A DNA stretch of 14,904 nt from Candidatus Neoflavobacterium equi. GTDB taxonomy: Bacteria; Bacteroidota; Bacteroidia; Flavobacteriales; Flavobacteriaceae. The notes beneath the pieces were generated by a model. The model was not told the DNA's origin. It searched no databases and saw nothing but the letters and a program-made list of their open reading frames with translations. The first letter of the stretch is position 1, and every line of letters begins with the position of its first letter. The DNA is taken from NCBI GenBank assembly GCA_018065745.1, contig JAGHSS010000145.1, positions 1 through 14,904 of the forward strand. The letters are read 5' to 3'. Positions 1,462 to 14,828 of this stretch are shown here, one piece after another. The position numbers and the translations under genes were made by a program.

Positions 1462-2478
1462 ATGTTGTTAGAAGTAAATGATTTTGGACTCTATTGCAAG
1501 CAGGCTGATGTTTATATTGATCCTTGGCGCCCAGTAAAAAGAGCGCTTATTACGCATGGTCATGCTGATCATATGCGTTGGGGGAATCAATATTATTTGG
1601 TTCACAAAGACACGGTTCCTGTTTTAAAAGTAAGGATTGGAGCAGACGTTAATTTTGAAAGTGTCTCCTATGGGGAAGTGAAAATTATTAATGGTGTCAA
1701 ATTTAGTTACCATCCTGCTGGACATATTTTGGGATCTTCTCAGATTAGATGTGAATATAAAGGTGAAATTTGGGTTGTGACTGGGGATTATAAATTGCAC
1801 AACGACGGTTTAAGTCCAGAATTTGAACCGGTACAATGCCATCATTTTGTAACTGAGTCAACATTTGGTTTGCCTATATATGAATTTAAATCACCGCTAT
1901 TAATATTCGATGATATCAAAAATTATTGGGCTGAAAATCAAAAAAACAAAGAGAATACCATCATTCTTTGTTATTCTTTGGGCAAGGCACAATCCATATT
2001 AAATCAAATCGATGAAAATACAGATAATGTGTTTCTGCACGGTGCCGTGGCAAATCTCAACGAATCATTTAGGGAAGTTGGATACAATTTTGTTGGGGAA
2101 CGCATCACTGGCGCTCACAACAAGGACCATTTTGATAAAAGTTTGATCATTGCTCCACCAAGTGTATTGGGTAGTGCTTGGATGCGAAAATTCGGCAATT
2201 ACAAGGTTGCATTTTGCAGTGGTTGGATGCAGCTGCGCGGTGCTAAAAACAGAAAAGGGGTAGACAAAGGATTTGTATTTTCAGACCATTGTGATTTCAG
2301 CTCTCTGAATAATGCGGTCAAAATGAGTGGTGCAGAACATGTGTATGTTACCCATGGTTATGAAACTCAATATGCCCAATGGTTGCGTGAATCTATGGGG
2401 TTAGACGCTCAAATTATGAAGACCTTATATTCTGATGAGGAAATGATGCAGGAAGAGGGGAAAGAGACTTTAGAATAA
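1462..2478 (+). CDS. Ligase-associated DNA exonuclease (metallo-beta-lactamase fold, SNM1/CPSF-like)
   Basis: A 338-residue metal-dependent nuclease, first gene of the exonuclease-ligase-helicase-phosphoesterase repair cluster. The metallo-beta-lactamase metal site is complete to the eye: HGHADH at 32-37, PAGH at 85-88, TGDYK at 107-111 with the bridging Asp, TEST at 131-134, SDHCD at 274-278 and a late VTHGY at 296-300. The order and the SDH motif are those of the RNA/DNA-processing SNM1/CPSF-like branch, not of beta-lactamases or glyoxalases. Length matches the family named ligase-associated DNA exonuclease. It most likely trims DNA ends or flaps before ligation; polarity and substrate are not visible. 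The ligase start follows after 14 nt, so the two are very probably co-transcribed and the activities coupled. No signal peptide. The start ATG sits directly before the conserved opening LLEVNDFGLYC. Confidence 0.92.
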   Translation: MLLEVNDFGLYCKQADVYIDPWRPVKRALITHGHADHMRWGNQYYLVHKDTVPVLKVRIGADVNFESVSYGEVKIINGVKFSYHPAGHILGSSQIRCEYKGEIWVVTGDYKLHNDGLSPEFEPVQCHHFVTESTFGLPIYEFKSPLLIFDDIKNYWAENQKNKENTIILCYSLGKAQSILNQIDENTDNVFLHGAVANLNESFREVGYNFVGERITGAHNKDHFDKSLIIAPPSVLGSAWMRKFGNYKVAFCSGWMQLRGAKNRKGVDKGFVFSDHCDFSSLNNAVKMSGAEHVYVTHGYETQYAQWLRESMGLDAQIMKTLYSDEEMMQEEGKETLE

Positions 2479-2492
2479 CAATACAGAAGCTT

Positions 2493-4094
2493 ATGGATGG
2501 ATTTTCAAAACTTTTTGAAGCAATAGATGGCACAACCAAAACAAATGCAAAAATTGATGCCATCGCTTCCTATTTGGATCAGGCTATAGAAGCTGATAAG
2601 TTATTCGCAATCGCATTGTTGATTGGCAATAAACCCAAAAGACCCGTGAAAACAACAACTTTGAGAGAATGGGTTGCAGATTACACCCAATTGCCCCTTT
2701 GGTTGTTTGAAGAATGTTATTATGTGGTTGGAGATCTTGGAGAAACCATTTCGTTGATGATATCCCAGATCACAGATCAGGATTCTGATAGCATATCTCT
2801 CAAAGAACTTTTTGAGTTGTTGGTGGAACTCCAAAAATATGACGTCGAAAAACAACGAGAAGTTGTAGAGACTTTTTGGAAAAACCTTTCAGGTACGCCG
2901 CTTTACCTTTTCAATAAGATGTTAACCGGGAGTTTCAGAATTGGAGTTTCAAAAAAAATAGTCATCAAGGCAATTGCCAAGCACCTCAACAAAGAAGAAA
3001 AAAATATTGAACACCAAATGATGGGTGTTTGGAATCCATTGGAACACACATTTAAAGATATGTTTCCATTGGAGGGCTTAGAAGTAGCCCACCATATTCC
3101 ATATCCATTCTGTTTGGCATATCCATTAGATATAGATTATGATGCACTAGGGCCTATAGAAAACTGGTTTTTGGAAAAAAAATTAGACGGCATCAGAGGT
3201 CAAATCATCTGTAGGAACAACGAACTCTTCATCTGGTCAAGAGGAGAGGATCTACTCACTGATAAATTCCCAGAATTTGAAGTATTGATTCATATGTTGC
3301 CAGCTGGAACGGTATTGGACGGGGAGATCATTCCATGGAAGGACGGCTTGCCGCTTCCATTCTCAGTGATGCAAACACGAATCGGTCGTAAAAATTTAAG
3401 TGTTAAATTTCTTAAAGAGGCACCTCTAATCATGGTTTGTTATGATTTATTGGAGTTTGAAGGGAAGGATTTGAGAGAGGAACCGTTGTCTGTGAGAAGA
3501 AAATTGTTAGAGCAATTAATTGCAGATTTAGTACATCAAGACATCTTGGTACTTTCAGAACGCATGCATTTTGATAATTGGGAAGCTGCTGGGGAGTTTA
3601 GGGACAATGCCAGAAATTACCACTGCGAAGGTTTGATGCTCAAAGCTGAAAATTCCATATACAATGTGGGAAGAAAAAAAGGAGGATGGTGGAAGTGGAA
3701 AACCGCTCCACTAAGCATTGACGGCGTGATGTTATATGCGCAAAGCGGCCATGGAAGAAGGGCAAATTTATTTACTGATTACACCTTTGCTGTTTGGGAT
3801 GGCGACCAATTGGTACCCTTTGCCAAAGCCTATTCTGGATTGACTGATAAAGAGATTGGAAGCTTAGACCGTTGGATCAAAGCAAATACCATTGAGAAGT
3901 TTGGACCTGTGCGTTCTGTAAAGCCGATTCAAGTTTTTGAAATTGGTTTTGAAGGTATCAATGAAAGCAGCAGACACAAATCTGGTGTCGCTTTGAGATT
4001 TCCAAGAATTTTGCGTTGGAGAACAGATAAAGAACCCAAACAAGCCAATACAAAAGATGATTTACTACAACTATTAAAGCTATTTGAATCGTGA
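2493..4094 (+). CDS. ATP-dependent DNA ligase of the Lhr/exonuclease cluster
   Basis: A 533-residue ATP-dependent ligase that would seal nicks in duplex DNA through a lysyl-AMP intermediate. All nucleotidyltransferase motifs can be read in order: motif I KLDGIR with catalytic Lys230 (230-235), motif III LDGEI (275-279), IIIa around VCYDLL (315-320), IV EGLMLK (379-384), V WWKWK (399-403), and a C-terminal motif VI-like RFPRILRWR (502-510) in the OB-fold part. Residues 1-200 form the N-terminal DNA-binding domain. It lacks the polymerase and phosphoesterase domains of LigD, so it is a stand-alone enzyme and not the NHEJ ligase; the essential replicative ligase of bacteria is the NAD-dependent LigA. 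Its TGA stop overlaps the helicase GTG start by 4 nt, which implies translational coupling. Full length, no missing motif. Confidence 0.95.
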   Translation: MDGFSKLFEAIDGTTKTNAKIDAIASYLDQAIEADKLFAIALLIGNKPKRPVKTTTLREWVADYTQLPLWLFEECYYVVGDLGETISLMISQITDQDSDSISLKELFELLVELQKYDVEKQREVVETFWKNLSGTPLYLFNKMLTGSFRIGVSKKIVIKAIAKHLNKEEKNIEHQMMGVWNPLEHTFKDMFPLEGLEVAHHIPYPFCLAYPLDIDYDALGPIENWFLEKKLDGIRGQIICRNNELFIWSRGEDLLTDKFPEFEVLIHMLPAGTVLDGEIIPWKDGLPLPFSVMQTRIGRKNLSVKFLKEAPLIMVCYDLLEFEGKDLREEPLSVRRKLLEQLIADLVHQDILVLSERMHFDNWEAAGEFRDNARNYHCEGLMLKAENSIYNVGRKKGGWWKWKTAPLSIDGVMLYAQSGHGRRANLFTDYTFAVWDGDQLVPFAKAYSGLTDKEIGSLDRWIKANTIEKFGPVRSVKPIQVFEIGFEGINESSRHKSGVALRFPRILRWRTDKEPKQANTKDDLLQLLKLFES

Positions 4095-6520
4095 ATGCAT
4101 TCTCAGAAGTGTGGTTTTACAATCAGAATTGGAAACCACATGAATTTCAAGAACAAACCTGGAAAGCCATTGCTAAAGGGAAATCAGGTTTGCTAAACGC
4201 ACCAACGGGCTATGGTAAAACTTTGGCTGTGTGGTTTGGCGTTCTTGACCATTACTACAACAACAGCAAATACCAAAAGAAAAAAAATAACAAGCTGCAC
4301 GCTCTGTGGATAACACCCTTGCGCGCGCTGTCTAAAGAAATACTCTTGGCTACTCAGAAAATTTCTGACAACCTTGATTTAGATTACAAAATTGAATTGA
4401 GAACAGGGGACACGACTACTAGTCAACGTCAGAAACAACGTAAAAAACCACCTCAGGCATTGATTACAACGCCAGAAAGTGTCCATTTGTTAATGGCATC
4501 AAAAGGGCATCGCGAGTATTTTGAGCAATTGGAATTCATCGTCATTGATGAATGGCATGAACTCATGGGAAGTAAACGCGGCGTGTTGGTTGAATTGGCT
4601 ATCGCGCACATTAAAAAGATAAATCCAAATCTTAAAATTTGGGGGATATCTGCTACCATTGGAAATATTGAAGAAGCCAAAGATATTTTGACCAGAGACC
4701 CTCAAAGTGTTTTGGTGCGTTCAAAAATTCAAAAAAAACTTAGTATTCAAACCATCTTTCCAGATGATTTGGAAAAATACCCATGGACAGGACATTTGGG
4801 AATCAAACTTATTGATAAGGTAGTTCCGCTCATATATGAAAACAACACCACATTGATATTCACCAATACCAGATTTCAATCTGAAATTTGGTATCAAAAA
4901 ATACTTGAATACGATCCTGATTTGTCTGGACAAATCGCTTTGCATCACGGTTCTCTAAGTGATGAATTGAGAATATGGGTGGAAGATATGCTTCATCAAG
5001 GCGTGCTCAAGGCTGTAATTTGTACCAGTAGTTTGGATTTGGGTGTAGACTTTAGATCTGTTGATTGCGTGGTGCAGATAGGTTCTCCAAAGGGAATTGC
5101 GCGATTTCTTCAACGCGCAGGAAGGTCTGGGCATTCTCCCGGTGCGTTGAGTAAAATTTATTTTTTGCCCACACACAGTCTTGAAATTGTAGAAGGTGCT
5201 TCGCTCAAATATGCGGTCAAGGAAGGATTAATTGAAAAGCGACTTCCGTTTATCAGAAGCTTTGATTTATTGATCCAGTTCATGATGACATTGGCGGTGA
5301 GCGATGGATTTAAGGCTCAGGAATTATATGAAGAAATATTGCAAACCCATTGTTTTGAGAGTGTTAGTACTGATGAATTCAACCAGTGCTTGATGTTGAT
5401 TACTCAGGGAGGAACCAGTCTGTATGCCTATGATGAGTTTCACAAAGTAGTAGTTGAAGACGATGTTTTCAAGGTGACTTCACGCAGAATTGCCATGCAA
5501 CATAGGTTAAGTATTGGAGCTATTGTTTCTGATATGATGATGCGTGTCAAATTCAAAGGAGGTAAATATTTGGGATCTGTTGAGGAATTTTTCATATCCA
5601 AACTCAATGAGGGAGATGTATTTTGGTTTACGGGAAGGCCTTTAAAAATTATGCACATCAAAAACAATGAGGTAGTAGTCCAACCCACCAATGAAAAAGC
5701 AGGAACCATTCCAAGTTGGCAGGGAGGACGTTTTCCAATCACCAGTGATTATGGGAAAAGTATTCGTCACATGTTTTTGGAGATTAAAAAGAAAGACCGT
5801 TATAAAAGTGAAGAATTAATATACTTGGATCCGCTTTTTAAGCTTCAGGATGAGCGCTCTTATGTTCCTGAAGAAGATGAATTATTAGTAGAATATTGTA
5901 AGACAAAATATGGCTATCACCTTTTTGTATATCCCTATGAGGGGAAATTGGTGCATGAAGGAATGGCGGCAATCATAGCCTTTAGAATCAGTCAAAAACA
6001 AAAGATATCTTTTACCATAGCTTGTAATGATTACGGTTTTGAACTGTTGTCTGAAGATGATTTTAAGATTGATGAGGATTTGCTTCAACAATTGTTTTCT
6101 CCAGACAATATTGTCCAAGATGTTCAAAGTGGGGTGAATGTACGTGAAATGGCCCGTAGGCTTTTCCGTGATATTGCATCCATCTCCGGTTTAATTTTCA
6201 CCGGCTATCCAGGCAGAAACATGAAGACAAAACACCTTCAGGCAAACTCCGGTTTGTTTTTCAGTGTTTTTGAGGAAAATGAGCCCTCAAATTTACTGTA
6301 TCGTCAGGCTTATGATGAAGTTTTTGATTTTCAATTGGAAATCCAACGCATGCAGTTGGCTTTTCAACGCATCAGCACGCATAAGATTAAGTTTAAAGCC
6401 TTGGAAAAACTGTCGCCTTTTTCATTTCCTATATTTTCTGAATCTTTTAGAACCCGTTACAGCAATGAAGATTGGCAATCCAGATTGGATAAAATTAAAA
6501 AAGCATTGGATATTGACTAA
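4091..6520 (+). CDS. Ligase-associated DExH-box helicase (Lhr-Core type)
   Basis: An 809-residue superfamily 2 DNA helicase. Helicase motifs in order: Walker A PTGYGKT (38-44), Ia TPLRAL (75-80), Ib TPES (127-130), II DEWH (153-156), III SAT (187-189), IV FTNTR (257-261), HHGSLS (285-290), V SSLDLGVD (313-320) and VI QRAGRSGH (341-348). The remaining 450 residues fit the winged-helix, beta-barrel and C-terminal domains of Lhr-Core, with the family-like PSWQGGRFPITSD at 541-553. The long Lhr C-terminal extension is absent, as is usual for cluster-encoded forms. It would track along single-stranded DNA and unwind duplex for the neighbouring nucleases and ligase. The start is GTG at 4091, overlapping the ligase stop as GTGA. 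No ATG occurs in frame until after Walker A, so GTG is the only sensible start. Confidence in family is high; the physiological substrate is inferred. Confidence 0.94.
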   Translation: MNAFSEVWFYNQNWKPHEFQEQTWKAIAKGKSGLLNAPTGYGKTLAVWFGVLDHYYNNSKYQKKKNNKLHALWITPLRALSKEILLATQKISDNLDLDYKIELRTGDTTTSQRQKQRKKPPQALITTPESVHLLMASKGHREYFEQLEFIVIDEWHELMGSKRGVLVELAIAHIKKINPNLKIWGISATIGNIEEAKDILTRDPQSVLVRSKIQKKLSIQTIFPDDLEKYPWTGHLGIKLIDKVVPLIYENNTTLIFTNTRFQSEIWYQKILEYDPDLSGQIALHHGSLSDELRIWVEDMLHQGVLKAVICTSSLDLGVDFRSVDCVVQIGSPKGIARFLQRAGRSGHSPGALSKIYFLPTHSLEIVEGASLKYAVKEGLIEKRLPFIRSFDLLIQFMMTLAVSDGFKAQELYEEILQTHCFESVSTDEFNQCLMLITQGGTSLYAYDEFHKVVVEDDVFKVTSRRIAMQHRLSIGAIVSDMMMRVKFKGGKYLGSVEEFFISKLNEGDVFWFTGRPLKIMHIKNNEVVVQPTNEKAGTIPSWQGGRFPITSDYGKSIRHMFLEIKKKDRYKSEELIYLDPLFKLQDERSYVPEEDELLVEYCKTKYGYHLFVYPYEGKLVHEGMAAIIAFRISQKQKISFTIACNDYGFELLSEDDFKIDEDLLQQLFSPDNIVQDVQSGVNVREMARRLFRDIASISGLIFTGYPGRNMKTKHLQANSGLFFSVFEENEPSNLLYRQAYDEVFDFQLEIQRMQLAFQRISTHKIKFKALEKLSPFSFPIFSESFRTRYSNEDWQSRLDKIKKALDID

Positions 6521-6521
6521 A

Positions 6522-6557
6522 TTTTTATGCTTAAGTGCTGATTGTAAGCGATAAAAA
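6522..6557 (+). repeat. 12-bp stem-loop between helicase and phosphoesterase genes
   Basis: Starting 2 nt after the helicase stop, TTTTTAT (6522-6528) plus GCTTA (6529-6533) pair with TAAGC (6545-6549) and ATAAAAA (6551-6557). The only defect is one bulged G at 6550; the loop is 11 nt. No T-run follows, so it is not a standard terminator, although it could cause partial termination or protect the 3' end of a processed helicase message. It fills much of the 84-nt gap that breaks the tight packing of the repair cluster. A possible -7 box of the wrong last base (TAAATTTA, 6560-6567) follows it. The pairing is seen; function is inferred. Confidence 0.45.
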
Positions 6558-6604
6558 ATTAAATTTAGTATCATTAAACCCTGAACTAATAGATTAATAA
6601 CAAA

Positions 6605-7264
6605 TTGGAAAAAAAATATAAATCCATAACCCTGGGATCTACAGAAGTCTGGCTGTTGTCTGATTGTGCCATGTACATCCCTTTTGATGAATCTTTGATC
6701 ATTGCAGATTGGCACTTGGGTAAAACCGCACATTTTAGAAAATTTGGAATTTTTGTTCCCAAAACTTCATTAGACAAGGAGTTTGAGCAATTGGTTACAC
6801 TTGTGGCAACCTATCCTGTACAAAGAGTAATCTTTTTAGGTGATTTATTCCACTCGGAATGGAATATGGATTGGGACCTCTTTTTAGATGCTTTGGAACA
6901 ATTTTTTGATATTGAGTTTGTCCTTACTTTAGGGAATCATGATATCCTGGATTTTCAACAATATGAAATGGAACACCTCAAGATTGTTAAAAAATTTGAA
7001 GTCAATTCAGATATTTTACTTTCACATCAACCGTTAAAGCGGGTACCAGAGAATCAGTATAATATTGTTGGGCACGTGCATCCCGGGATTGAATTGCGTA
7101 CAAAATCCAAGCAACGCTTCAGGTTGCCCTGCTTTTACATTAAAGATAAGGTAGTGACTTTGCCCGCTTTTGGCGCCATGACAGGACTTTATATATTGGA
7201 TAAGGCAGATGCTGACGCCTGTTATGCTATTATGGGTACAGAGGTGTTTATGGTGCCAAAATAA
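6605..7264 (+). CDS. pdeM: Ligase-associated DNA damage response endonuclease PdeM (MPE-type metallophosphoesterase)
   Basis: A 219-residue binuclear-metal phosphoesterase, fourth gene of the repair cluster. The metallophosphoesterase motifs are all present: DWH at 35-37, GDLFHS at 79-84, GNHD at 110-113, SHQP at 140-143 and GHVHP at 156-160. Length and motif spacing fit PdeM, whose Pseudomonas putida relative (MPE) is known as a manganese-dependent single-strand DNA endonuclease. It would cut or trim single-stranded DNA exposed by the helicase. The likely start is TTG at 6605. The frame is closed by TAG at 6590-6592, and the next ATG is at residue 23, just before conserved sequence, so a weak start codon is hard to avoid. 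The 84-nt gap upstream contains a stem-loop, so expression may differ from that of the three tightly packed genes. It ends only 3 nt from the convergent epimerase gene. Confidence 0.88.
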   Translation: MEKKYKSITLGSTEVWLLSDCAMYIPFDESLIIADWHLGKTAHFRKFGIFVPKTSLDKEFEQLVTLVATYPVQRVIFLGDLFHSEWNMDWDLFLDALEQFFDIEFVLTLGNHDILDFQQYEMEHLKIVKKFEVNSDILLSHQPLKRVPENQYNIVGHVHPGIELRTKSKQRFRLPCFYIKDKVVTLPAFGAMTGLYILDKADADACYAIMGTEVFMVPK

Positions 7265-12923: not shown

Positions 12924-14621
12924 ATGAGTAACAACGGAGAAGATAAGAAAGTTATATTTTCAATGTCAAGAGTAAGTAAAACTTACTCGTCGACAAACAA
13001 ACAAGTACTTAAAGATATTTACTTAAGTTTCTTCTATGGTGCCAAAATTGGTATCTTGGGATTAAACGGTTCAGGTAAGTCATCTTTGTTAAAAATCATC
13101 GCTGGAGAGGATAAAAACTACCAAGGGGATGTTGTTTTTGCACCTGGATATTCTGTTGGATATTTGGAGCAAGAGCCAAAATTGGATGAAAACAAAACAG
13201 TCATTGAGATTGTCAAAGAAGGGATGTCAGAAATTGTATCTATCTTGGATGAATTCAACAAAATTAATGACATGTTTGGTTTGCCAGAGGTCTATGAAGA
13301 CGCTGACAAAATGCAAAAATTAATGGACCGTCAAGCAGAGCTTCAAGATAAAATTGACGCTGCTGGTGGATGGGAATTAGATACAAAATTGGAAATTGCA
13401 ATGGATGCTTTGCGTTGTCCAGATCCAGAAACACCAATCAGCGTGTTGTCAGGAGGGGAGCGCAGACGTGTTGCTTTGTGTAGATTGTTGTTGCAAGAGC
13501 CAGATGTATTGTTGTTAGATGAGCCTACCAACCACTTGGATGCTGAATCTGTGCACTGGTTGGAACAACATTTATCTCAATACAAAGGAACGATTATTGC
13601 CGTTACCCACGACCGTTATTTCTTGGATAACGTTGCAGGTTGGATTCTAGAATTGGACCGCGGTGAGGGAATTCCATGGAAAGGAAATTACTCTTCTTGG
13701 TTGGATCAAAAATCTAAGCGTTTAGAGCAAGAGGAAAAAGTTGCGTCAAAGAGAAGAAAGACTTTGGAGCGTGAGTTGGACTGGGTTAGACAAGGTGCTA
13801 AAGGAAGACAAACCAAGCAAAAAGCGCGTTTGCAAAACTACGACCGCTTGTTGAATGAAGATCAAAAAGAGCTTGAAGAGAAATTGGAGATCTACATTCC
13901 AAATGGACCACGTTTGGGAACCAATGTTATTGAAGCAAAAGGTGTTGCCAAAGCTTTTGGTGATAAATTGTTATATGACAACTTAAACTTTACACTTCCT
14001 CAAGCAGGTATTGTTGGAATTATTGGACCTAACGGTGCGGGTAAATCAACCATTTTCAGAATGATTATGGGAGAACAGCAAGCAGATGCAGGTACATTTG
14101 AAATTGGAGACACGGTTAAAATTGCTTATGTAGATCAAAATCACAGCAATATTGACGCTGAAAAATCCATTTATGACAACTTCGCAGACGGTCAGGAATT
14201 GATCATGATGGGAGGGAAGCAGGTCAATGCTCGTGCATATCTTTCACGTTTCAACTTTGCAGGTTCAGATCAGAACAAAAAAGTGGCAGCTTTATCAGGT
14301 GGAGAGCGCAATCGCTTACACTTAGCTATGACTTTAAAAGAAGAAGGTAACGTTTTGTTATTAGATGAGCCAACAAATGACTTGGATATCAACACGTTGA
14401 GAGCCTTAGAAGAAGGTTTGGAAAATTTTGCTGGATGCGCCGTTGTGATCTCTCACGACCGTTGGTTCCTTGACAGAATTTGTACACATATCTTAGCTTT
14501 TGAAAATGACTCAGAAGTTTACTTCTTTGAAGGATCTTTCTCTGAATATGAAGAAAACCGTAAGAAACGTATGGGTGATGTAGCTCCTACACGTGTTAAA
14601 TACAGAAAATTGATTAGATAA
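12924..14621 (+). CDS. ettA: Energy-dependent translational throttle protein EttA (ABC-F ATPase)
   Basis: A 565-residue ABC-F protein with two ATPase domains and no membrane part. Domain 1 has Walker A GLNGSGKS (46-53), signature LSGGER (175-180), Walker B LLLDEP (196-201) and switch His229. Domain 2 has GPNGAGKS (368-375), LSGGER (457-462), LLLDEP (478-483) and His511. An insertion in domain 1 (about 95-140) corresponds to the EttA arm that contacts ribosomal protein L1, and the basic, charged linker (about 262-325) is the P-site tRNA interaction motif. E. coli EttA binds the ribosomal E site and gates the first elongation step according to ATP/ADP level. The length is close to the 555 residues of the E. 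coli protein, and the basic tail (RVKYRKLIR) is family-like. The arm plus overall length argue for EttA over the shorter-armed Uup or resistance ABC-Fs. It is monocistronic by appearance, with its own promoter and a terminator downstream. Confidence 0.95.
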   Translation: MSNNGEDKKVIFSMSRVSKTYSSTNKQVLKDIYLSFFYGAKIGILGLNGSGKSSLLKIIAGEDKNYQGDVVFAPGYSVGYLEQEPKLDENKTVIEIVKEGMSEIVSILDEFNKINDMFGLPEVYEDADKMQKLMDRQAELQDKIDAAGGWELDTKLEIAMDALRCPDPETPISVLSGGERRRVALCRLLLQEPDVLLLDEPTNHLDAESVHWLEQHLSQYKGTIIAVTHDRYFLDNVAGWILELDRGEGIPWKGNYSSWLDQKSKRLEQEEKVASKRRKTLERELDWVRQGAKGRQTKQKARLQNYDRLLNEDQKELEEKLEIYIPNGPRLGTNVIEAKGVAKAFGDKLLYDNLNFTLPQAGIVGIIGPNGAGKSTIFRMIMGEQQADAGTFEIGDTVKIAYVDQNHSNIDAEKSIYDNFADGQELIMMGGKQVNARAYLSRFNFAGSDQNKKVAALSGGERNRLHLAMTLKEEGNVLLLDEPTNDLDINTLRALEEGLENFAGCAVVISHDRWFLDRICTHILAFENDSEVYFFEGSFSEYEENRKKRMGDVAPTRVKYRKLIR

Positions 14622-14630
14622 TTAAATTTT

Positions 14631-14748
14631 TTAGGGCGTTCCCCTTTCCTGCGCTAGCGCTTGGAAAGGTCGGGTTTTCCGCTGTATCTTTTGAAAAAGG
14701 CTTGAAAAAAGCCATTTGTCAAAAGGATGCCGCTTCAACCCCTAACGC
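14631..14748 (+). ncRNA. Structured intergenic element downstream of ettA, possible repeat family or RNA
   Basis: This GC-richer block folds into several perfect stems. (1) CCTTTCC (14643-14649) with GGAAAGG (14663-14669), enclosing GCG/CGC (14651-14653, 14658-14660) with a CTAG loop. (2) TCTTTTGA (14687-14694) with TCAAAAGG (14719-14726), enclosing GGCTT (14699-14703) with AAGCC (14709-14713). (3) A closing set: TTAGG (14631-14635) with CCTAA (14741-14745) and GGTT (14673-14676) with AACC (14737-14740). An alternative closure pairs GCGTT (14636-14640) with AACGC (14744-14748), excluding part of the first. From memory only, elements with the same conserved words (GGGCGTT, GGTCGGG, CCGCTGTATCTTTTG, CAAAAGGATGCCGCTTC, CCCTAACGC) recur between genes in many flavobacterial genomes. 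It contains no credible reading frame. It could be a 3' UTR element of ettA, a small RNA or a non-coding mobile repeat; strand is assumed from ettA. Confidence 0.6.
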
Positions 14749-14791
14749 ACGGGACACCTACTCTAAAAGAAGATCGTTATCTCAACATAAT

Positions 14792-14828
14792 AAAAGCCCA
14801 TTTCAGCGATGATTTGGGCTTTTTTTTT
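14792..14828 (+). terminator. Rho-independent terminator downstream of ettA
   Basis: AAAAGCCCA (14792-14800) pairs with TGGGCTTTT (14815-14823), with an inner TCA/TGA stem around GCGA (14803-14812). The T-run continues to 14828, nine T in all after the C. The A-run on the left arm means it could also work on the minus strand for a gene beyond the window. It would end ettA transcripts that include the structured element. Confidence 0.85.

Follow-up and report, generated by a model that had tools for sequence, protein, structure and literature searches.

A copy of the Flavo-1 family downstream of ettA in Candidatus Neoflavobacterium equi, probably a dispersed repeat that acts as a folded DNA strand

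The structured stretch 3′ of the ettA-type gene on contig JAGHSS010000145.1 of Candidatus Neoflavobacterium equi is a copy of the Rfam family RF01705, Flavo-1, with a match on the minus strand at 14750-14664 that covers positions 1-76 of the 76 of the model and scores 44.6 bits against a cut-off of 42. It is the sole match when the window, the whole analysed stretch of 14,904 nucleotides, is scanned against Rfam at E values up to 1. Membership in Flavo-1 and the larger size of the unit than modelled by Rfam are certain, and the element and its fold, a three-way junction of the helices P1, P2 and P3 (Table 1), are secure. We consider it likely, with a probability of roughly 0.6, that we are dealing with a copy of a mobile DNA repeat, dispersed and non-autonomous, which acts as a folded single strand. 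A first-pass annotation of the sequence had left the family unnamed but pointed to a similar word order in other flavobacterial intergenic regions, a recurrence that is borne out below. In 2010 Flavo-1 was entered as probably an RNA of no known role (Weinberg et al., 2010, PMC2864571), and its placement could not be explained in a transcriptome study of 2021 (PMC9723704); the Flavo-1 literature consulted describes neither a three-way junction nor a mobile-DNA reading.

Position and fold of the element

That stems are present in this stretch, as the first-pass annotation had claimed, is confirmed beyond chance by folding against dinucleotide shuffles. As RNA, 14620-14760 reaches a z score of -3.30 on the plus strand, with 0/200 shuffles as good, and of -2.02 on the minus strand, with 5/200 as good. 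As DNA, 14630-14752 surpasses each of 200 shuffles, whichever strand is folded (z -3.78 and -3.32), and gives the three-way junction of P1, P2 and P3 on either of them. The minimum-energy RNA folds of the 141-nt stretch 14620-14760 retain P2 and P3 with other closures and without P1, so that P1 is drawn from the comparison of copies and from the DNA folds. In line with the proposed lack of coding potential, the list of open reading frames of the window contains none of at least 60 amino acids inside the stretch. The element agrees with Flavo-1 (PMC2864571) in sequence and structure, in the P2 arm and in its occurrence in Bacteroidetes, but the 76 positions of the Rfam model include no helices beyond those of P2, to which P1 and P3 are added in the full unit.

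Table 1. Features of the element and its surroundings in the window
Feature	Position	Strand	Basis or remark
ettA-type ABC-F gene, 565-aa ORF	12924..14621	+	ORF list; named by resemblance and by the first-pass annotation
3′ flank CCCTAA (minus strand)	14630..14635	-	other copies mostly CC, then A residues
Full element, 113 nt, three-way junction	14636..14748	-	parsed unit, DNA fold, covariation
P1, 3′ strand AACGC	14636..14640	-	parsed copies, covariation, DNA fold
P1, 5′ strand GCGTT, pairs with 14636-14640	14744..14748	-	100% paired, double changes at 4/5 pairs (64-copy alignment)
P3 hairpin, CCTTTCC/GGAAAGG and, further in, GCG/CGC, not among the Rfam model helices	14643..14669	-	parsed copies, covariation, DNA fold
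P2, the Flavo-1 arm	14672..14742	-	Rfam match, pair counts
P2, GGG/CCC	14740-14742 with 14672-14674	-	
P2, G opposite A	14739 with 14675	-	
P2, internal loop, GAA opposite GGA	14734-14736 with 14678-14680	-	
P2 inward of the GAA/GGA loop: GC/GC, second internal loop, apical hairpin	within 14672..14742	-	
Intrinsic-terminator-like hairpin with T run, 3′ of the element	14792..14828	+	sequence

Two outer closures, GCGTT/AACGC and TTAGG/CCTAA, had been suggested to compete and thereby to hint at a bistable fold or at different folds on the two strands. Both are present here, but conservation is seen for GCGTT/AACGC only; TTAGG/CCTAA does not covary, and its share of paired cells is 65.6%, compared with 64.9% for shuffles, which leaves the bistable fold unsupported. 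That the two closures seem to compete is a coincidence of the copy in the window. Different folds on the two strands apply in a weaker sense only: the same three helices are predicted for both as DNA, whereas the conserved mismatches between purines (GNA opposite GNA, A opposite G) are present on the minus strand only.

The element is placed between the ettA stop codon and the terminator-like hairpin. A similar hairpin follows shortly after the ettA stop codon in most of 14 relatives inspected, and the closest named relative of the gene among the matches listed is that of Paenimyroides baculatum (92%). The 80 loci ranking highest in ettA similarity, not all of them informative since some are short after ettA, were scanned with R1, a model of the full unit, which gave nine matches at E up to 1. 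In only one of these loci (L132, Flavobacterium sp. KMS) is a copy located next to the ettA stop, and it lies beyond the terminator, whereas that of the window lies before it; a weak match (E 0.4) is located about 280 nt after the ettA stop in L146. Elsewhere in the window, 1462-7264 holds a run resembling, by eye, a ligase-associated DNA repair cluster, whose genes we take to be exonuclease-like, an ATP-dependent DNA ligase, a DEXH helicase and a metallophosphoesterase.

Comparison of copies

A 161-bp stretch gives 41 BLAST matches in the genome of origin (G000; 2.17 Mb, 83.55% complete), where Flavo-1 matches number at least 115, 81 of them over the cut-off, a lower bound since 150 of 424 candidates were scored; at least 59 matches occur in the one-contig genome G010 (150/1046 candidates scored). 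From the 115 copies with their flanks, 113 were parsed and 110 passed, that is, had a closing stem with at least 4/5 Watson-Crick pairs followed by C, the two unparsed and three failing copies standing outside the pair tables. As the parser finds the P1 partner by complementarity, the pairing rate of P1 is partly built in, but the kinds of change are not: besides GCGTT/AACGC, the 110 copies display GCGCA/TGCGC, GCGAA/TTCGC, GCGTC/GACGC, GCGGC/GCCGC, GCAAA/TTTGC and GTGTT/AACAC. Above GGG/CCC in P2, A stands opposite G in 58/110 and G opposite A in 45/110 copies, and the next internal loop has GNA opposite GNA in 108/110. The tail after P1 begins with CCAAAA in 45, CCCAAA in 7 and CCTAAA in 7 of them, while the type of apical loop (GNA or GNYA versus GNRA) is mixed in this genome and was not relied on. 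The nearest copies are at most 91.6% identical (median 82%, n=110), which argues against a recent burst, and across the family the full unit measures about 80-130 nt.

Covariation is evident in each of the alignments. Among 64 copies picked from the 110, with P1 as one criterion, 95.9% of cells are paired against 39-58% for slid versions of the structure, a comparison favouring the structure since it was derived from these same copies; 211 cells carry double changes against 56 in shuffles, and 22 of the 26 pairs have at least one. A second alignment (A2), fitted to the model, combines 34 model matches, namely the 30 best-match loci of 30 genomes of the genus, the genome of origin included, and four loci near ettA from more distant genomes; with seven rows being orthologous lepA copies, it is 98.0% paired and has 140 double-change cells against 42 shuffled. 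The 14 orthologous lepA copies by themselves (A3) are 94.0% paired, with 48 such cells against 17. The first-pass annotation had taken the stretch for a conserved structured element or a non-autonomous repeat rather than spacer DNA and had named a lack of homologues, or arms that change without compensation, as what would speak against it; since homologous copies with compensatory changes exist, this objection falls away.

Distribution and occupancy of sites

Flavo-1 matches occur in 26/40 genomes, the genome of origin included, and in 0/14 controls. R1 matches 186/199 genomes of the genus (19 candidates scored per genome), leaving 13/199 without a match, and 44/296 genomes of the phylum (12 candidates scored per genome), both counts including the genome of origin and both lower bounds because of strict filters. 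The Leptospira biflexa plasmid p74 carries one intergenic copy (Rfam 58.9 bits, R1 47.9 bits) with a P1 of GCGCC/GGCGC, situated at L435 2995-3070 between genes for an alpha/beta hydrolase and for exodeoxyribonuclease V gamma. With a canonical copy as query, two Leptospira plasmid p74 records (E 6e-3) and no phage were matched, and a copy of the G000 type as query matched no plasmid. A 16-letter pattern led to 40 viral stretches, one of which held elements; the IMG/VR contig L418 has two R1 matches of 70.9 and 37.8 bits, the first also over the Rfam cut-off. These elements, at 6175-6253 and 4308-4379, have opposite orientation and lie near ORFs which by eye are methyltransferase-like and HNH-like, and in G216 a copy (L447 5001-5136) reaches the 3′ end of a gene with an ORF6N domain. 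The distribution of the family is thus wide and patchy, and its copies are dispersed and mostly intergenic, 11/201 sharing more than 40 nt with an ORF of 100 aa or longer under our ORF calling. Replichore polarity in G010, apparent in the 11 copies first listed, was dropped when the 55 copies above the cut-off split 35:20 (p 0.058; a hand count, with borders placed from 20 sampled GC-skew stretches).

At orthologous sites the element is present in full, absent or degraded. Among the 30 best lepA loci of 61 genomes (L488-L517), the lepA leader holds the element in 14, G010 included, in sense orientation in 14/14 and with a visible TATATTTGC box upstream in 12/14, while L490 looks empty, L498 retains only P3 and the 3′ half of P1, and L493 and L505 appear degenerate. 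The lepA copies of different species differ in entire apices of P2 and P3, which looks like an exchange or replacement of arms. A site just after the stop codon within the same gene pair is filled in L355 and empty in L298; L225 versus L385 is a weaker pair because its flanks have diverged, and L359 versus L292 was set aside as other repeats occupy the gap. It is well supported that the repeat is dispersed and that a given site may be occupied or vacant, and the comparison of sites also supports its presumed mobility. Target-site duplication, which had been held out as a sign of such a repeat, is not clearly seen at the lepA sites or in L355 versus L298, where the flanks are AT-rich and diverged.

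Action as RNA or as DNA

Flavo-1 might be a structured RNA, either a small RNA or a UTR element, which acts after transcription of the conserved strand. Its Rfam type 'Gene; sRNA', the strong covariation in all three alignments, the sense orientation in the lepA leaders with the box upstream, and several 5′ transcribed regions of Flavobacterium psychrophilum that coincide with Flavo-1 (PMC9723704) are in line with this, but the same study describes the matches as seemingly indistinctly sense or antisense to transcribed regions and many as outside them. Since the copy of the window lies between the ettA stop codon and the terminator, the ettA mRNA is expected to contain the conserved strand's complement, which speaks against such an RNA, as does the placement in the genome of origin, where 27/35 tandem copies are antisense and 50/86 copies with both neighbours lie between convergent genes. 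In three samples from other genomes (30/59 copies of G010, 28/44 of G214 and 28 loci of the genus, seven being the lepA site), the conserved strand of tandem copies is antisense in 26 and sense in 23 cases, and no gene orientation is common to all genomes.

Pair composition bears on the same question. G-T wobbles make up 14/1152 pairs of P1 and P2 in alignment A1 (1.2%), 4/680 in A2 (0.6%) and 5/249 in A3 (2.0%), against 27/295 (9.2%) in a control of 14 distinct tRNAs; the Fisher p of 2e-10 for the first rate versus the control is nominal, as related copies are not independent. G-T pairs exceed A-C mismatches on the conserved strand by 37 to 7, which together with the one-strand purine mismatches argues for single-strand action, although the G-T excess also fits RNA. 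The structured RNA is in our view an unlikely explanation, and action as a folded DNA strand is probable, at odds over RNA of about three to one; although Flavo-1 figures as an RNA gene in Rfam, the evidence here leans toward a DNA repeat. Some copies, such as those at lepA, may have taken on RNA functions.

Less likely still is an element of gene 3′ ends, such as a bidirectional terminator, an mRNA stabilizer or a supercoiling site between convergent genes. It would fit the genome of origin, where copies occupy convergent gaps in 52/90 cases versus 13/184 for other gaps of the same loci, these loci having been chosen around copies, but the preference is absent in G010 (4/29), G214 (2/25) and the genus sample (6/27), and the window has a separate terminator-like hairpin downstream. 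An intrinsic terminator, a GC-rich stem followed by a T run, was rejected, as the 12 nt after P1 include a T4 run in 10/110 copies on one strand and 3/110 on the other.

The mobile DNA repeat, which we prefer, has to accommodate several observations that count against it. The constant orientation at lepA also suits a cis-acting RNA, tandem copies in the genome of origin are biased to antisense, the DNA fold is equally good on the other strand, a target-site duplication is not clearly seen, and 11/201 copies overlap ORFs while apical loops are mixed.

Relation to known repeats

Like REP/REPIN sequences, the Flavo-1 unit is short, mostly intergenic, of high copy number, foldable as one strand and non-autonomous, and mobilization by a RAYT (Y1 transposase) would also agree with the report that Bacteroidetes RAYT genes of subclass 2.6 have atypical secondary structures at their flanks, copies of which occur at other places in the genome (PMC6006769). 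Two copies lie near frames of this type, one about 0.5 kb from a RAYT-type ORF in L334 and one in the distant genome G496 (L449 4970-5075), roughly 70 nt 5′ of a RAYT-like ORF (5144-5560) which is cut by the contig end and is a RAYT by motif only, Pfam giving no family; the latter is a lead, no more, and both are near background. PF01797, by contrast, is matched neither in G000, at 83.55% completeness, nor in G004, which is 100% complete and holds at least 88 copies, and in 25 genomes of the genus a Y1 match is found in 16/21 with at least 10 copies and in 3/4 with fewer. Fifty Y1 loci (181,574 bases) contain four copies, about as predicted from the density in G010, and 30 further Y1 loci from distant genomes gave nothing better than E 0.087. 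Beside most of 31 RAYT-type frames other palindromes are visible by eye, for instance GCGGATTTGCAATCCGTGCC or GCGAGCGTCCCGCTCGTGCC. The foot GT[AG]G is absent in 109 parsed units, whose 5′ foot is GCGTTA or a covarying form followed by the junction, and the palindrome of REP/REPIN sequences has 20-40 nt, in contrast to the three-way junction of about 80-130 nt. RAYT-type transposases, a search for which the first-pass annotation had proposed, show no linkage beyond background; RAYT mobilization was rejected, and a REP/REPIN-type repeat is very improbable.

Flavobacterial RAYT loci (L318, L316, L333, L326, L478 and others) are themselves flanked by short palindromes of several kinds, such as GCGGATTTGCAATCCGTGCC, GCGAGCGTCCCGCTCGTGCC and GCTCGATTGCATCGAGTACC, which are candidates for the cognate repeats of those transposases, in line with the atypical structures reported at subclass 2.6 (PMC6006769).

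The similarity to miniature inverted-repeat elements is likewise partial. MITE-type non-autonomous elements are short, have terminal inverted repeats and a target-site duplication and derive from a parent transposon. The Flavo-1 unit shares with them the small size, a short inverted terminal match, given by the 5 bp of the covarying P1, and filled and empty sites, but differs by the lack of a clear target-site duplication, by the absence of a parent transposon among what was found and by an internal structure that is kept by compensatory change. The unit ends GCGTTA/TAACGC bring integron attC sites to mind.

Biological meaning

The repeat proposed here would be a single-strand fold closed by P1, in which P2 is a bulged arm carrying two purine-rich internal loops and the hairpin P3 is interchangeable. 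Its minus strand may be recognized as folded single-stranded DNA by a putative protein, copies may spread slowly by such a protein-recognized single-strand route, and old copies would decay or exchange arms. For the copy of the window, the ettA mRNA would have a structured 3′ UTR formed by the complement of the conserved strand, and any effect of the element on ettA is probably incidental.

More tentatively, and with less than even confidence, we suggest that Flavo-1 as a whole might be no RNA family and might instead serve, as a folded single strand, as substrate for an undescribed mobile DNA system in Bacteroidota that reaches Spirochaetota and phages, whereby the purine mismatches (GNA opposite GNA) would be read by a dedicated protein and arms exchanged between copies while the junction is kept. 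If Flavo-1 is a folded DNA repeat, the puzzle of its placement would be answered, a repeat present in most sampled genomes of the genus would be reclassified, and a new way of recognizing single-stranded DNA would become accessible to direct test.
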